NCBI GenBank assembly: GCA_026416115.1
Contig: JAOAFU010000127.1
Location: 1 to 35,403 of the forward strand
Reading direction: 5' to 3'
DNA length: 35,403 nucleotides
DNA from: Bacteroidales bacterium
GTDB taxonomy: Bacteria > Bacteroidota > Bacteroidia > Bacteroidales > DTGW01
Shown: positions 18,054 to 27,332 of the stretch, piece by piece
Numbering within the stretch: position 1 is the first letter of the stretch
Layout: each line of letters opens with the position of its first letter
Position numbers and translations under genes: made by a program
The notes under the pieces: model-generated
The model's database searches: none
What the model was told of the DNA's origin: nothing
What the model saw: the letters and a program-made list of their open reading frames with translations, nothing else

Positions 18054-18794
18054 ATGCCGTACCGTCGCCTACCCAACACCGATGCTGCTCGCCTTAAAGC
18101 TATGCGCACAGCATATGATAGAGGTAAAGAATTGCCTCCTTTTAAACTTGCTTTTTCGCAGTCAACTTTTCAAAAATTACAGTCGTTTCTACCTCTACTC
18201 GAGAAAAACATTGCTGAGAGTCGCTTTACCTACGAAAATCAAATAAAAAAGAGCAAGGAATATCAACAACACATGCGTAAAGCTAGAATTTATATTTCTC
18301 ACTTTTTACAGGTGATGAACATGGCAATAGAAAGAGGCGAACTTCCTGCAAATACTCGTTCTTACTTTGGCATTGAAGAATTCGACAATCGTTTACCTTC
18401 TCTTAATAGCGAAGAGGCTCTTCTTAAGTGGGGCGAAAATATACTTCAAGGTGAACAAGAGCGTATGCGTCGTGGATTATCTCCTATTACAAATCCTACT
18501 GTTGCTCTCGTTCGTGTTCGTTTCGAAAGATTTAAAGATGCCTATCTGGCTCAAAAAACTATGAAAAAAAATTCGTCTCGATATTTCTCGGAGCTCCCTG
18601 TTTTACGCAAAACGGCCGATGAACTCATCGCCCAGATTTGGGACGAAGTGGAAGACTACTTTAAAGATTTACCCGATGAGAAACGTCGTTCCGAATGCTC
18701 AAAATATGGCATTGTTTATGTTTTTCGAAAAAACGAGCTCAATCGTCTTTCTCTTCCTTTAAATCAGGAGGCAATGCCACAGTTGTTTGTCTAA
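18054..18794 (+). CDS. conserved Bacteroidota protein of unknown function
   Basis: 246 residues beginning MPYRRLPNTDAARLKAMRTA. I recognise this opening as one that recurs in uncharacterised Bacteroidota proteins, but I know no function. The protein is soluble, charged and apparently mostly helical (LPLLEKNIAESRFTYENQIK, AELIAQ-type stretches), with no signal peptide, membrane segment or known catalytic motif. It is arginine-rich and most arginines use CGT or CGC, unlike its neighbours where CGA and AGA are common; this suggests strong expression. A 418-bp non-coding region lies upstream and a GT2 gene follows after 88 bp, with no clear shared operon. A structural or nucleic-acid-associated role is possible but not shown. 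Confidence 0.75.
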   Translation: MPYRRLPNTDAARLKAMRTAYDRGKELPPFKLAFSQSTFQKLQSFLPLLEKNIAESRFTYENQIKKSKEYQQHMRKARIYISHFLQVMNMAIERGELPANTRSYFGIEEFDNRLPSLNSEEALLKWGENILQGEQERMRRGLSPITNPTVALVRVRFERFKDAYLAQKTMKKNSSRYFSELPVLRKTADELIAQIWDEVEDYFKDLPDEKRRSECSKYGIVYVFRKNELNRLSLPLNQEAMPQLFV

Positions 18795-21268: not shown

Positions 21269-22006
21269 ATGAAAACAAGAGTATTTGTAACTTTAATTTT
21301 AGTTACGTTGGGGCTATATTTGTTTTCTCAATGTAAGCAAAAGGAAATGGAACAGATCAGTTACACTGCACAAAGTGTGGCCGATAGCCTACACTGGATT
21401 AAACAATCGTGCATTAAGCTTCAAGTTTATGGAAAAACTATTTATTTTGACCCCCTTGGCATTAAAAAAGCCGACTCTGCCGACTTTATTTTCATCACGC
21501 ATCCTCATGGCGATCATTTTTCTCCAGCCGATATTGCTAAAATTGCAACATCCAAAACTGTAATTTATGGCCCGAAGGAATGCAGGTATACAGGAACATG
21601 CAAAGAATTTATCGAAGTTGTACCCGGTCAAACTATCAATGTTGCTGAAAATATTAGTATAACTACAGTACCTGCTTACAACGTTGTTAAAACCAATTTC
21701 CACCCCAAAGAAAAACAATGGGTAGGGTATTTATTAAAAATTGGTAATATAGTAGTGTATCATGCTGGCGATACTGAACGAATACCCGAAATGAAAAATT
21801 TTACAGCCCATATTGCAATGTTGCCTTTAGGTCAGACCTATACTATGAATTCGGTTGAAGAAGCTGCTGAAGCTGCAAAAGATGTTAAAGCCGAAATAGC
21901 TATCCCAATACACTGGGGGGCATATGAAGGTACTGCTGCCGATGCACAAAAATTCAAATCCCTTCTCGAAAATCAAATGAAAGTGATTATTAAATCTGTC
22001 GAATAG
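21269..22006 (+). CDS. UlaG-like metallo-beta-lactamase-fold hydrolase, exported
   Basis: A 245-residue MBL-fold protein. The N-terminus VFVTLILVTLGLYLFSQC is a hydrophobic export signal; the cysteine at its end could be lipidated, though Q at -1 is a poor lipobox. The metal site is present: FIFITHPHGDHFSPADI (HxHxDH), VVYHAGDTERIPEM (bridging D) and IAIPIHWGAYEGT (late H). The overall pattern, with IKLQVYGKTIYFDPLG at the start, matches the UlaG-like branch of L-ascorbate-6-phosphate lactonase relatives, but the substrate is probably different and unknown. A strong terminator (22035-22063) follows, separating it from lgt. Confidence 0.88.
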   Translation: MKTRVFVTLILVTLGLYLFSQCKQKEMEQISYTAQSVADSLHWIKQSCIKLQVYGKTIYFDPLGIKKADSADFIFITHPHGDHFSPADIAKIATSKTVIYGPKECRYTGTCKEFIEVVPGQTINVAENISITTVPAYNVVKTNFHPKEKQWVGYLLKIGNIVVYHAGDTERIPEMKNFTAHIAMLPLGQTYTMNSVEEAAEAAKDVKAEIAIPIHWGAYEGTAADAQKFKSLLENQMKVIIKSVE

Positions 22007-22166: not shown

Positions 22167-22967
22167 ATGATGCTTCAATATATTCATTGGAATGTTAGTC
22201 CCGAAATATTCAACATCGGCCCGCTTGCTATTCGATGGTATGGATTACTTTTTGCAACTGCTTTTATTACGGGTTATTATATTTTTAAATATTTTTTCAA
22301 AAAAGAGGGGTATCAAGTTGAACTTCTCGATCAGCTGACTGTATATGTGGCTTTGGGTATTATCGTTGGTGCTCGATTAGGCCATGTTCTTTTTTACGAT
22401 CCTTCTTACTATTTTGCCAATCCTCTCAAAATTATTGCCGTATGGGAAGGTGGTTTAGCAAGTCACGGTGCGGCTATTGGTTTACTAATTTCTCTTTATT
22501 TATGGGTTCGCAAGCATAAAACAAATATTTTATGGTTGCTCGATCGAATTGCTGTAGTTGTTGCTCTTGGTGGCATGTTTGTGAGGCTTGGTAATTTAAT
22601 GAACTCCGAAATTTATGGTATTCAGACTTCTTTACCGTGGGGTTTTATTTTTGTACGTGAAGGTGAAACTGTGCCCAAACATCCTACTCAAATATACGAA
22701 GCACTTTCTTACTTTATGATCTTTCTATTGCTTTTTACTGCTTACCGGAAAAATTGGTGGTTCGAAAGCAAAGGCCTTGTCTTTGGTATCTTTCTCATCC
22801 TGCTTTTCGGTGCCCGTTTTATGATCGAATTTATTAAAAATCCCCAGGAAGAGTTTGAGACTTCACTCCCTCTCTTGATGGGACAAATTCTAAGTTTACC
22901 TTTTATTATCGCAGGAATTATCATTGTTATTTGGGTCTTAAGTAAAAAGCCATCATCCAAAAAATAA
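22167..22967 (+). CDS. lgt: prolipoprotein diacylglyceryl transferase
   Basis: 266 residues from ATG 22167; the frame opens at 22086 but that segment overlaps a likely promoter and carries no family similarity, while MMLQYIHWNVSPEIF is a normal Lgt start. It transfers diacylglycerol from phosphatidylglycerol to the lipobox cysteine of prolipoproteins in the inner membrane. Family signatures are LAIRWYGLLFATAF, IVGARLGHVLFYDPSYY, WEGGLASHGAAIGLL (the key GG-ASHG region), FVRLGNLMNSEIYG and HPTQIYEALSYF. About seven membrane helices are visible. Its 3' end overlaps the convergent hemW by 15 bp. It serves lipoproteins such as the one at 32409-32906. Confidence 0.95.
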   Translation: MMLQYIHWNVSPEIFNIGPLAIRWYGLLFATAFITGYYIFKYFFKKEGYQVELLDQLTVYVALGIIVGARLGHVLFYDPSYYFANPLKIIAVWEGGLASHGAAIGLLISLYLWVRKHKTNILWLLDRIAVVVALGGMFVRLGNLMNSEIYGIQTSLPWGFIFVREGETVPKHPTQIYEALSYFMIFLLLFTAYRKNWWFESKGLVFGIFLILLFGARFMIEFIKNPQEEFETSLPLLMGQILSLPFIIAGIIIVIWVLSKKPSSKK

Positions 22968-24080
22968 CTCCTTTGCAATAGTATCGGAAATAAACCATCC
23001 TTTTAAATTAAGCACAATTCCCTTCGTGTTTATGTCCAAATAGGAAGGATAGTATTTTTGTGCTCGAAGTTCGACTTTTTTGTAGTTTTCAATACCAAAT
23101 TGTCTTATAAACTTATCCTTTATCAACCCTTCTTTCCTCCTTATTTGCAACATAATAACTTCATTCATCTTATTCTCTGTAGAAATATTATCAATGATAA
23201 TCTGAGGTTGTCGTTTTCTTATTCCTTCAAAATAATGACTAAGGCTTCTAACATTTTCATATCGTAGAATTCCATCAAAAGAATGGGCTGAAGGGCCTAA
23301 TCCAAGGTATGGTTTATGTTCCCAATACGACTGATTGTGTCGTGATCGGTAACCTTTTTTTGCAAAATTGGATATTTCGTAATGTTCATAACTATCTGCT
23401 ATCAAAAGTTCGTGTAGTATTTTCATCTGGTTCCAACTCTGCTCTTCAGCTATCTCCGACAATTTTCCTCTTTCTTTTAAAATGCCAAATGTAGTCCCCG
23501 ATTCAATGGTTAAGTGATAGGCAGATACATGCTGAACAGAAAAACCGACTGCTGTTTTTATTGTCTTTTCCCATAGCTCTTCCGACATGCCAGGAATTCC
23601 ATAAATTAAGTCGATGCTTAAGTTTATTATACCAGCTTGATAGGCCCATTCAATACTTTGGCTCGAATGTTCTGAACCATGACGACGATTTAAATATTTT
23701 AATATCCAGTCGTCGAAACTCTGAACTCCAATACTCAATCTATTTATCCCAGCATTTCGAATCTGTCGATAGTACTCTTCCGAAACATCTTCAGGATTAA
23801 CTTCAATAGTTATTTCCAAATCATTTGACAGAGTAAATGTTTTGGAAATTTTTTCCAAAAGCAGTGCAATAGCATTCGCATGTAAAATGGATGGTGTACC
23901 ACCTCCAAAGTATATGGTTTCTATAGGGGTTTTTTCTAAAAAAAAATCCTTTCTAATTTCAATCTCCTCGAGCAAGGCACTATAAAAGTCCGATAATGAA
24001 GATAGATTAATCTGAGTATAAAAGTCACAATAATGGCATCTTCTATGGCAATATGGTACGTGAATATAAATTCCAGCCAC
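22953..24080 (-). CDS. hemW: radical SAM heme chaperone HemW
   Basis: A 375-residue radical-SAM protein of the HemN/HemW group. It begins MAGIYIHVPYCHRRCHYCDF with C-x3-C-x2-C for the [4Fe-4S] cluster, followed by DF instead of the extra cysteine seen in true HemN coproporphyrinogen dehydrogenases; that points to HemW, a heme-binding chaperone. Other signatures are ETIYFGGGTPSILHANAI, ITIEVNPEDVSEEYYRQI, NRLSIGVQSFDDWILKYLNR and IDLIYGIPGMSEELWEKT. Third gene of rpiB-rrf2-hemW, starting 5 bp past the Rrf2 stop. The 3' end overlaps lgt. Confidence 0.92.
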   Translation of the reverse strand: MAGIYIHVPYCHRRCHYCDFYTQINLSSLSDFYSALLEEIEIRKDFFLEKTPIETIYFGGGTPSILHANAIALLLEKISKTFTLSNDLEITIEVNPEDVSEEYYRQIRNAGINRLSIGVQSFDDWILKYLNRRHGSEHSSQSIEWAYQAGIINLSIDLIYGIPGMSEELWEKTIKTAVGFSVQHVSAYHLTIESGTTFGILKERGKLSEIAEEQSWNQMKILHELLIADSYEHYEISNFAKKGYRSRHNQSYWEHKPYLGLGPSAHSFDGILRYENVRSLSHYFEGIRKRQPQIIIDNISTENKMNEVIMLQIRRKEGLIKDKFIRQFGIENYKKVELRAQKYYPSYLDINTKGIVLNLKGWFISDTIAKELFFG

Positions 24081-24085
24081 TCTTT

Positions 24086-24520
24086 TTAGATAAATACTTT
24101 ATGAGCGTGATGATGTATTTCGTTAGCCAACGATTCAATATTTTGCTCATTAAAAAGTTTCTTTAGCTGCTCACGTATGGGGCTATAATGAGGATGGATA
24201 GGACAGTGTTCTTCTTCACTCGAACACGAAGCTACACCTATAAGACAAGAGTTAAAAAAATCTCCTCCGTCGATGATATTTACAATATCCATCATCTTAA
24301 TTTGACTTGGAGGGACAGCCAGTGTAAATCCCCCGTTTGGGCCTTTTATGGAACGCAAAATTTTATTTTTAGCCAAAACTTGTAAAATTTTACCAAGAAA
24401 TGGCGTTGGAATATTGAGCGCTTTTGAAATTTCTTTTATACCGATAATTCTGCTTCGGTTCTCTTCGAGTGCCAGAAAGATGCAGGCACGTATAGCATAT
24501 TTACAAGTGTTAGATAGCAT
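24086..24520 (-). CDS. Rrf2-family transcriptional regulator with three C-terminal cysteines
   Basis: A 144-residue Rrf2-family winged-helix regulator. The DNA-binding part is typical: MLSNTCKYAIRACIFLALEE, IIGIKEISKALNIPTPFLGK, ILQVLAKNKILRSIKGPNGG and FTLAVPPSQIKMMDIVNIID. C92, C99 and C106 form C-x6-C-x6-C (NSC, ASC, EHCPIH), close to the Fe-S ligand region of IscR and NsrR though with different spacing, so it is probably an Fe-S or nitric-oxide/redox sensor. It sits between rpiB and hemW with only 1 and 5 bp between genes, so it is co-transcribed. Linkage to a heme chaperone fits iron/heme-related control; which promoters it binds is unknown. Confidence 0.88.
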   Translation of the reverse strand: MLSNTCKYAIRACIFLALEENRSRIIGIKEISKALNIPTPFLGKILQVLAKNKILRSIKGPNGGFTLAVPPSQIKMMDIVNIIDGGDFFNSCLIGVASCSSEEEHCPIHPHYSPIREQLKKLFNEQNIESLANEIHHHAHKVFI

Positions 24521-24521
24521 A

Positions 24522-24968
24522 CTAACAGGTTTTAAGAGGTATTTTATTTATACGATTTAAATGGCGACCACCGTCGAAGGTCGTATGTAAAAAAATGTCT
24601 ACTATTTGTTTAGCTTCTTCAAGCGTTATAAATCGTGCAGGCAAAGAGCATATGTTTGCATCATTATGTGCTCTTGCTAATCTCGATATTTCTGTATTCC
24701 AACATAACGCTGCTCTAATTCCTTGATGTTTGTTTACAGTCATATTAATTCCATTACCACTACCACATAGCGAAATTCCAATATCCACAAGCTTATTCTC
24801 GACAGAGTCAGCTAGCTTATGTGCATAATCGGGATAATCGGCACTCTCTTCACTATAGGTCCCATAATCCACTATCTCATATCCTTGCTCGGCTAGCCAC
24901 GATTTTATCTCCTCTTTCATTTTATATCCTGCATGATCCGAAGCAATTCCTATTTTTCTAATGCTCAT
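24522..24968 (-). CDS. rpiB: ribose-5-phosphate isomerase B
   Basis: A 148-residue RpiB/LacAB-family sugar-phosphate isomerase interconverting ribose 5-phosphate and ribulose 5-phosphate in the pentose phosphate pathway. The family core is complete: IGIASDHAGYKMKEEIKSWL, VDYGTYSEESADYPDYAHKL, IGISLCGSGNGINMTVNKH (active-site cysteine and the GSGNG loop), RAALCWNTEISRLARAHNDA and NICSLPARFITLEEA. Full length. First gene of the operon, with a well-formed minus-strand promoter at 25049-25079, giving a leader of roughly 75 nt. Confidence 0.96.
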   Translation of the reverse strand: MSIRKIGIASDHAGYKMKEEIKSWLAEQGYEIVDYGTYSEESADYPDYAHKLADSVENKLVDIGISLCGSGNGINMTVNKHQGIRAALCWNTEISRLARAHNDANICSLPARFITLEEAKQIVDIFLHTTFDGGRHLNRINKIPLKTC

Positions 24969-25048
24969 ATTTTATTTTGTTAAATCAGTTGTTCATATTC
25001 TGTTTATAAAATTTCTATTACGAACTATAACTTCTTTGAATTGCGAAT

Positions 25049-25079
25049 CAAAATTAATCATATAATTATTTTACTCAAA
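25049..25079 (-). promoter_or_regulatory. Bacteroidota-type promoter for rpiB-rrf2-hemW
   Basis: On minus, TTTG (25079-25076) and TAATTTTG (25056-25049) are separated by 19 bp, matching the -33 / -7 consensus. It faces left toward rpiB, whose start is at 24968. Confidence 0.6.
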
Positions 25080-25284
25080 AATGCTTAATATTTTTTTTAC
25101 CTAATGTCCACAGTTTTATGCTATTTATTTAACAACAGTTATCTATAAAAAGATTAACAGTACTATAAAATATCTATCCTCAACAAATGTTGATAACTTT
25201 CACAAGTTATTTCTTTATCAGCAACTTTTAGAAATTTAATCTGTTAATATAAAGTTTACAATAGAAAAATGTTGTTAAATGCAC
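25080..25284. other. AT-rich non-coding core with DnaA-box-like words; candidate oriC
   Basis: This stretch lies between the rpiB promoter and the nadA -7 element and holds no gene. The 391-bp gap 24969-25359 as a whole is the largest gap at the point where gene polarity and base composition switch. DnaA-box-like words (consensus TTATNCACA or its complement) are TGTTGATAA at 25188 (8 of 9), and 7-of-9 matches ATGTCCACA at 25104, TTATCTATA at 25139, TTATCAGCA at 25215 and TGTTGTTAA at 25270. T-rich DNA at 25086-25100 could unwind. The 7-of-9 matches are expected by chance in such DNA, and dnaA is not nearby, so this is only a candidate. Confidence 0.3.
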
Positions 25285-25292
25285 TAATTTTG
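25285..25292 (+). promoter_or_regulatory. possible -7 element (TAATTTTG) for nadA-ruvB-osmC
   Basis: TAATTTTG matches TAnnTTTG and lies 68 bp before the nadA start. No clear -33 element at about 20 bp upstream. The predicted leader contains five CTT repeats (25321-25335). Confidence 0.4.
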
Positions 25293-25359
25293 ACAAAATT
25301 TTTCCAACCAATTAACAGTCCTTCTTCTTCTTCTTGTTTTAAATATAAATTAATAAATA

Positions 25360-26319
25360 ATGAATAATAAAGAGCTGTTAATATCGGAAATTAATCGATT
25401 ACGTAAAGAAAAAAATGCGGTAATAATGGCTCATTATTACCAGATTTCCGATATACAAGATATTGCGGATTTTGTTGGTGATAGTCTTGCATTAGCACAA
25501 CATGCCCTTAAAGTAAGCGCTGATGTTATAATTTTAGCAGGCGTTTATTTTATGGCCGAAACTGCTAAAATTATTAATCCCCATAAAAAAGTTATAATTC
25601 CCGATCCGTTCGCTGGCTGTTCTTTAGCCGATTCATGTCCAGCCGATAAATTTGCAGAGTTTCGTTCTAAATATCCTGATGCTGTTGTTGTATCTTACGT
25701 TAATACTTCGGCCGAAATTAAGGCTTTAACCGATATTGTTTGTACTTCGTCCAATGCTATCGATGTAATTAATGCTATTCCACGCGATCGAAAAATTATA
25801 TTTGCACCCGATCGTAATTTAGGCAATTACCTTGCTGCAAAGACTGGACGTGAACTCATAATTTGGGACGGAGCTTGCCATGTGCATGAGGATTTTTCAT
25901 TAGAACGTATTTTAGAACTTAAGACTATACATCCTGATGCGAAGATTATTGCGCATCCCGAATGTAAGAAACCTATATTATTAGTTGCTGATCACATCGG
26001 ATCAACCTCATCGTTATTAAATTTTGTTACTAAAGATAAGTCTACAAAGTATATTGTAGCCACCGAATCAGGAATTTTACATCAGATGCAATTGTATTGC
26101 CCTGAAAAACTTTTTATCCCTGCACCTCCTACCGATAGCACTTGTGGTTGTAATGACTGCAAATTTATGAAACTTATAACACTCGAAAAAATTCATCGTT
26201 CTCTCGTTACTCTTACACCCGAAGTTATTATTGATGAAAAGATCAGAGTGAAAGCTGAAAAGTCCATTAAAGCTATGTTAGAGTTATCTGAAGGTAAAAA
26301 TGTATTTCAGAAAGTATGA
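25360..26319 (+). CDS. nadA: quinolinate synthase A
   Basis: A 319-residue NadA, condensing iminoaspartate with dihydroxyacetone phosphate to quinolinate in de novo NAD synthesis, using a [4Fe-4S] cluster. Signatures are [96 protein letters not shown] and the C-terminal [20 protein letters not shown]. The usual cluster cysteines of the family are in the SLADSC, HPEC/CHVH and CxCxxC regions; the last is present. No nadB or nadC is in the window. The stop overlaps the ruvB start (ATGA, 26316-26319). Confidence 0.96.
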
Positions 26320-27332
26320 CTTTTGATATAAGAAAGGCTTCTTCAATTGCCGATATAGATTTTGAAAATCGTATTAGACCTACGTGTTTTGACGATTTTA
26401 CCGGTCAACAACATGTTGTCGAAAATCTTAAAATTTTCGTTAAGGCCGCATTAATGCGTTCAGAACCTCTTGATCACGTTCTTTTGCATGGACCTCCTGG
26501 ACTAGGTAAAACAACTTTAGCTAATATTATTGCCTCTGAAATGCGTGTAAATTTGAAGATAACGTCAGGTCCTGTTCTCGATAAACCCGGTGATTTGGCA
26601 GGAATACTCACTAGTTTAGAAGTTGGCGACGTTTTGTTTATTGACGAAATACATCGTATATCTCCAATTGTCGAAGAATACTTATATTCTGCCATGGAAG
26701 ATTATTTTATCGATATTATGATAGATAAGGGGGTAAGTGCTCGTTCCGTTCAAATTAAACTCAATCCCTTTACTTTAATAGGCGCAACAACTCGTATTGG
26801 TCTGTTAACTAGTCCTTTACGTGCTCGATTTGGAATTAATTTACATCTCGATTATTACAGTGTTAATTATTTAAAGTCTATAGTCGTCCGTTCTGCATCT
26901 ATATTAGGCGTTCAAATAGACGATGTATCAGCATATCAGATTGCTTCTAGGAGCAGGGGAACACCTCGAGTAGCTAATGCATTATTACGTCGTGTTAGAG
27001 ATTTTGCACAGGTACTTGGAAACGGTAAGGTTGACAGTGATATCACTCAATATGCTTTAGATGCTCTTCGGATCGATCCGAATGGATTAGATGAAACTGA
27101 TATACGCATTTTGAGAACTATAGTCGAAAAATTTAATGGTGGTCCTGTTGGTTTAAATACTATTGCTACTGCTATTGGTGAAGATCCCGGAACAATAGAA
27201 GATGTATTTGAACCTTTTTTAATTCAAGAGGGTTATATTAATAGAACCCCCCGTGGTCGTGAGGCTACACCTAAAGCCTTTTCAGTACTTGGATTTGATA
27301 AATTATTTCCCCGTCAGCAAACCTTATTTTAA
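26316..27332 (+). CDS. ruvB: Holliday junction branch migration helicase RuvB
   Basis: A 338-residue AAA+ motor that drives RuvA-RuvB branch migration at Holliday junctions. Visible are the N-terminal [20 protein letters not shown], Walker [39 protein letters not shown], Walker [21 protein letters not shown], sensor [21 protein letters not shown] with the arginine finger, and the C-terminal winged helix ([40 protein letters not shown]). Full length. ATG overlaps the nadA stop, so translation is coupled. It is followed after 11 bp by the OsmC-family gene; a shared transcript is likely though the functions are unrelated. Confidence 0.98.

Follow-up and report, generated by a model that had tools for sequence, protein, structure and literature searches.

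The intergenic region between rpiB and nadA

The window, which is the whole stretch of DNA analysed here, is the entire contig C15 (35,403 bases) of a 3.08-Mb Bacteroidales draft genome that comprises 252 contigs and is 92.4% complete. Within it, divergent rpiB and nadA genes are separated by an intergenic gap that is a candidate for the chromosomal replication origin. The genes and sites of this region are as follows.

22953–24520, minus strand: hemW and the gene for an Rrf2-family regulator, part of a conserved setting
24522–24968, minus strand: rpiB, left neighbor (TIGR01120, 159 bits; cut-off 138.65)
24969–25359, no strand assigned: AT-rich gap between rpiB (minus) and nadA (plus), the oriC candidate on the basis of composition, skew and boxes
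25049–25079, minus strand: possible rpiB promoter, a Bacteroidales-type promoter word
25360–26319, plus strand: nadA, right neighbor (TIGR00550, 361 bits; cut-off 262.9)
26316–27332, plus strand: ruvB, part of the same conserved setting

The gap has a G+C content of 21% compared to 35.4% across the window, as AT-rich as originally described, and thus has the composition of the unwinding region that typifies a bacterial oriC. Scans of the window for RNA families at the gathering threshold and for tRNA genes found none. Divergent promoters also had been proposed at the two sides of the gap, of which at most half was recovered. The minus-strand word at 25049–25079, detected with a pattern that we take to be of the Bacteroidales type, is a weak match as three such words occur in the window against 2.2 expected, and the plus strand of the gap yielded no promoter word. 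A sigma-70 promoter scan yielded two sites, fewer than the 4.7 in shuffled sequences.

When genes truncated at the contig ends were included, a recount placed 11 of the 12 genes to the right of the gap on the plus strand and 13 of the 22 to the left on the minus strand, the same values on which the original prediction of a polarity switch was founded. The 12th gene on the right is mnmG, truncated at the contig end (35012) and ~10 kb from the gap as had been noted. The centered cumulative GC skew, calculated for 70 blocks of 500 bases, reached its minimum at 25.5 kb (P 0.0005, 20,000 block permutations), so that the skew switches in the direction predicted for an origin; the raw per-base curve was lowest at 26,220. 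Third-position GC skew, from which the two contig-end genes were excluded, was −0.132 for plus-strand genes on the left (n = 9) and +0.032 for those on the right (n = 10). Minus-strand genes on the left gave +0.060 on their own coding strand (n = 12), and the sole minus-strand gene on the right gave −0.106. Thus, the switch follows the side of the gap and not gene direction alone. Unlike GC skew, TA skew does not turn at the gap: its minimum is at 18,341, ~7 kb left of the GC-skew minimum, and that of the summed GC and TA curve is at 21,982. Within the window, the cumulative-skew check suggested in the original prediction agreed for GC and failed for TA. As the 252-contig draft is too fragmented for a global curve, the skew of this genome was read within the window only.

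Putative DnaA boxes and a conserved box-plus-triplet element

The strongest sequence evidence at the locus is an element at 25299–25338 that the original prediction did not name. It reads TTTTTCCAAC-CAATTAACAG-TC-(CTT)5-GTT and is accompanied by a cluster of boxes of a type characteristic of the lineage (TATTAACAG).

25299–25338, plus strand: putative core unwinding element of tandem box-like words, spacer and triplet tract, oriented towards nadA
25299–25308, plus strand: weak box-like word that opens the tandem, TTTTTCCAAC; it aligns with TTTTnnAACA in relatives
25309–25318, plus strand: second box, CAATTAACAG, of the lineage type and the highest-scoring of the ten boxes (13.7 bits)
25321–25338, plus strand: triplet tract of five CTT and one GTT; 3′-GAA-5′ repeats on the opposite strand, DnaA-trio-like
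25336–25374, no strand assigned: AT-rich stretch, the likely duplex unwinding region, which extends into the first nadA codons
25241–25250, minus strand: strong lineage-type box with the same 10 bases as the facing box (repeat D5; 12.6 bits)
25375–25384, minus strand: box within the first nadA codons, ATATTAACAG, that faces the core element (12.6 bits)
24977 (minus), 25000 (minus), 25126 (plus), 25129 (plus), 25151 (plus), 25187 (minus) and 25272 (minus), spanning 24977–25281: seven more boxes of at least 5 bits

The element was characterized with a matrix and a model built from the gaps of 31 of 44 relatives. Most gaps of the relatives share the consensus TTTTnnAACAnTATTAACAGnnTATyATCATCATT in a single orientation. 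The element lies 55–223 bases before the start of the NadA match in the 31 relatives used and 47 bases before it in the window. The triplets (CTT) and the first box (AACC) of the window are unlike those of most relatives. Ten picks with scores below 7 were omitted from the matrix (L004, L028, L031, L033, L034, L092, L118, L120, L130, G141), along with L007 (score 7, judged on inspection to be a wrong site) and L052 and L097 (scores of 7 and 8, CAA-type triplets). L113, which has the same site as G163, was for that reason retained at a score of 6, an author's choice and not a strict cut-off. Two gaps longer than 1,000 bp among 38 (L043 and L054) were left unaligned. The first automatic choice of elements picked wrong sites in several gaps and was replaced, and a self-refining matrix that drifted to a different, palindromic box pair was dropped.

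With the window excluded from the 31-relative matrix, the window element ranked first of 70,702 positions, with 17.6 bits compared to 7.8 for the next. Among 79 stretches located away from nadA in four relatives the best score was 15.5, on a scale that gives the window site 17.7. A scan of the 13 omitted gaps and seven other loci found 15 of the 20 at 17.6 bits or above; 13 of the 20 loci are short and so offered a small search space. The misses were L028, L031, L159, L162 and L164, the last of which (from G251) has its element at rpiB, away from nadA. Some genomes contributed loci to both collections, so that the locus counts are not all independent. The model search missed the window site with default filters. 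With filters off, its top window match was 25295–25340 (E 0.011), and the runner-up was at the facing box (25351–25383, minus strand; E 0.089).

Ten lineage-type boxes of at least 5 bits, scored with the second-box matrix, occupy the gap and the first nadA codons. Shuffled sequences have 2.09 (none of 500 reached ten), the remainder of the window predicts 1.62, and the densest 400 bp for boxes in the window begins at 24976. The gap thus carries the box cluster expected of a bacterial origin, in the form of lineage-type boxes. From its conservation we infer that the word at 25309–25318 serves this lineage as a DnaA box. Of the 31 relatives, 8 have facing boxes against 1.6 expected, seven of the eight at a like distance, and none has same-direction boxes; this modest evidence hints at a two-sided opening site.

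Boxes of the E. coli type are few in the gap because its boxes have the lineage form, and for the same reason they are weak evidence. The exact box TTATCCACA is absent from the gap. The best word of the original prediction, TGTTGATAA, is present at 25188, but the single box with up to one mismatch is not unusual, since 11.5% of 400 Markov shuffles reach one (mean 0.14). With up to two mismatches, eight boxes were counted in the gap against 1.83, and none of 400 shuffles reached eight. On these counts TTATCCACA was rejected as the main key to the gap. The plain words TTATTAACA, TTGTTAATA and TGTTAATA were mostly near chance, and the ten-column matrix performed better.

The E. coli-type oriC is AT-rich, carries a cluster of boxes and lies near gidA/mnmG. 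The gap likewise is AT-rich with a box cluster, but it is ~10 kb from mnmG and without the exact TTATCCACA. The predicted oriC on the first chromosome of Prevotella intermedia OMA14 is described as similarly box-bearing, placed at a GC-skew transition and far from dnaA (PMC4755523). It was located with E. coli boxes by Ori-Finder (PMC4755523), which are few in the window where the lineage form dominates. The basal unwinding system of B. subtilis and others also combines tandem boxes, a short spacer and at least three triplets, in which A recurs regularly on one strand; the search rule is a minimum of three 3′-NAN-5′ triplets no farther than 16 bp from a DnaA box (PMC8287927). The window follows this rule: the tract begins 2 bases past the box at 25309–25318 and has seven consecutive triplets with the regular base. 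It differs in its box, which is TATTAACAG-like, and in its triplet, which is 3′-GAA-5′ where the commonest one given in that source is 3′-GAT-5′ (PMC8287927); most relatives have TATCATCAT on the top strand.

Gene order, chromosomal skew and dnaA in relatives

The divergent rpiB–nadA pair was present at 38 of 132 nadA loci, the window's own included, and was lacking at the other 94 partly through contig ends or moved genes. The gaps in 36 of the 38 pairs span 364–852 bp, and the remaining two are 1,790 and 2,565 bp. The pair often is surrounded by hemW, the Rrf2 gene, ruvB, osmC and pheS in the same order. The locus accordingly has the conserved position expected of a bacterial oriC. In G163 and a sister (L114, L117, L137) rpiB is inverted relative to nadA, and the long gap before nadA is kept.

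Of the 17 genomes searched with the model, four (G004, G163, G177 and G352) had contributed a sequence to it and 13 were held out. The top match had E ≤0.003 in seven of the held-out genomes and in six of these seven it was beside nadA, rpiB or dut: adjoining nadA in G322, G205, G225 and G241, between rpiB and ruvB in G251, and before dut in G303 (L278). The clear match in the seventh, G122 (L276), is between genes that resemble, by eye, those for a small exported protein and a phosphatase. The element may have changed neighbors in G303 and G122. No clear match (E >0.02) was obtained in the other six held-out genomes. Two of these are the window's own genome and its congener G001, whose assembly is 83% complete and yielded neither nadA nor rpiB. 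In the own genome the default-filter search that missed the window site gave a weak best match on contig C222 (E 0.135). In G241 the second match was nearly as strong as the first, and several places in this genome were matched over the same model span (18–48) with the same or similar scores, a pattern that resembles a repeat family.

Chromosome-wide GC skew was sampled in five relatives as 20 stretches of 18–20 kb each; G163, G177, G322 and G205 are single-contig assemblies and G352 has 5.93 Mb in one contig. The expected sign was observed in 92 of the 100 stretches. In G163, G177, G352 and G205 the element beside nadA is unsurpassed as an origin by any other position, and the best-fit intervals have widths of 30–55 kb. 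G322 is the exception: 5.4% of its positions surpass the element, and the best-fitting interval (2,655–2,810 kb) includes rpiB and is ~130 kb or more from the element. A better skew origin elsewhere, which would have counted against the original prediction, hence did not emerge in four of the five relatives. The sign of the 2-kb skew profile changes at the gap in G177 and G352. Among draft genomes, GC skew on the nadA and rpiB sides, respectively, was +0.167 and −0.042 in G011, +0.124 and −0.034 in G033, and +0.047 and −0.001 in G003. In G323, which is read on the opposite strand, it was −0.190 on the nadA side and −0.018 on the rpiB side, the latter from 5.8 kb only and without clear opposite skew.

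The dnaA gene of the own genome is on the 6.2-kb contig C246. It encodes a full-length DnaA (TIGR00362) that was the only DnaA match in a search of the genome, and none was found among the open reading frames of the window, so that the candidate is not linked to dnaA. The highest element score on C246 was 9.2 bits, where the window site reaches 17.7 by the same measure; the dnaA-linked origin that the original prediction had named as a possible refutation thus was not detected. In all five relatives (G163, G177, G352, G322, G205) dnaA is on the terminus side, at 63–97% of half a chromosome from the element. As several of these records start at dnaA, the record start is not the origin.

A candidate oriC and its proposed mechanism

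Taken together, the skew switch, the skew of relatives at the homologous site, the conserved element and the box cluster argue that the gap at 24969–25359 is the chromosomal replication origin, with a probability of about 0.93 on this sequence evidence. The original prediction of an origin thus is supported.

The origin instead might lie within ~10 kb of the gap and not inside it, in which case the gap would serve only to control the two divergent genes and its words would be the sites of a regulator. Both rpiB and nadA need promoters, and between 26 and 32 kb the window has a flat skew curve, so that the point is not sharply fixed. Nevertheless, the gap holds both the top element site and the densest box stretch of the window, the 2-kb skew of G177 and G352 switches sign at the gap itself, and where genes have moved the top match remains at one or other neighbor, all of which makes this explanation improbable. 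It is still less likely that the switch is the edge of a horizontally acquired or rearranged block. The G+C content does fall from about 0.36–0.39 on the left to 0.27–0.32 at the right end, but gene order across the gap is conserved and synteny is shared in relatives, whose chromosome-wide skew supports an origin at the homologous site. An origin that adjoins dnaA, with the switch at the gap a local accident of gene order, is a common arrangement in other phyla. It is highly implausible here given the lack of the element on C246, the distance of dnaA from the element in the five relatives, and the failure of any position to surpass the element in four of these. Moreover, oriC commonly is distant from dnaA in Bacteroidetes (PMC4755523).

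If the gap is the origin, DnaA produced from the distant gene would bind the array of TATTAACAG-like boxes. A DnaA filament then could grow from the tandem words at 25299–25318 along one strand of the triplet tract at 25321–25338 and open the AT-rich DNA that reaches into the first codons of nadA. The opened stretch would be loaded with helicases, and two forks would depart from it in opposite directions; the action of these opposite forks over evolution is proposed to have left the changes of GC skew and of gene polarity at the gap. An oriC of this kind is known and ordinary in bacteria; here it would be far from dnaA, and its conserved opening element would be a marker of origins throughout the order. 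Neither the rpiB–nadA setting nor the element consensus was found in the mostly open-access literature searched, and both may be recorded elsewhere, DoriC included. The assignment would pin down where replication begins in a draft with contigs of undefined order, and so would allow growth-rate estimates from read coverage and the correct assignment of leading strands. The element also would provide a small, testable origin core for a group in which oriC is distant from dnaA.

The recognition helix of DnaA in E. coli is DHTT. All 15 proteins examined from the order (L001 and L235–L248), the own protein included, have DHAT at this position, where the aligned chain 8btg, presumably from a B. subtilis-like species, has DHTT. 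Thr follows the conserved pair in most DnaA sequences studied, and variation at positions 435 and 438–439 could alter box recognition (PMC5043019). The DHAT change may explain the lineage box. More broadly, the origins of the order may share a signature in which a DHAT DnaA is matched to tandem TATTAACAG-type boxes and a triplet tract, in many cases with a facing box at the very start of the adjacent gene, box and protein having changed together, a proposal that we rate at slightly under even odds. If correct, the signature would locate the origin in drafts even where flanking genes have moved, and Ala or Thr in the recognition helix would correspond to a preference for TATTAACA or TTATCCACA, respectively. 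The DnaA family search yielded 20, 18 and 5 matches, dnaA included, in G177, G352 and G251, respectively, many of them near-identical short ATPases that probably are helper ATPases of insertion sequences.
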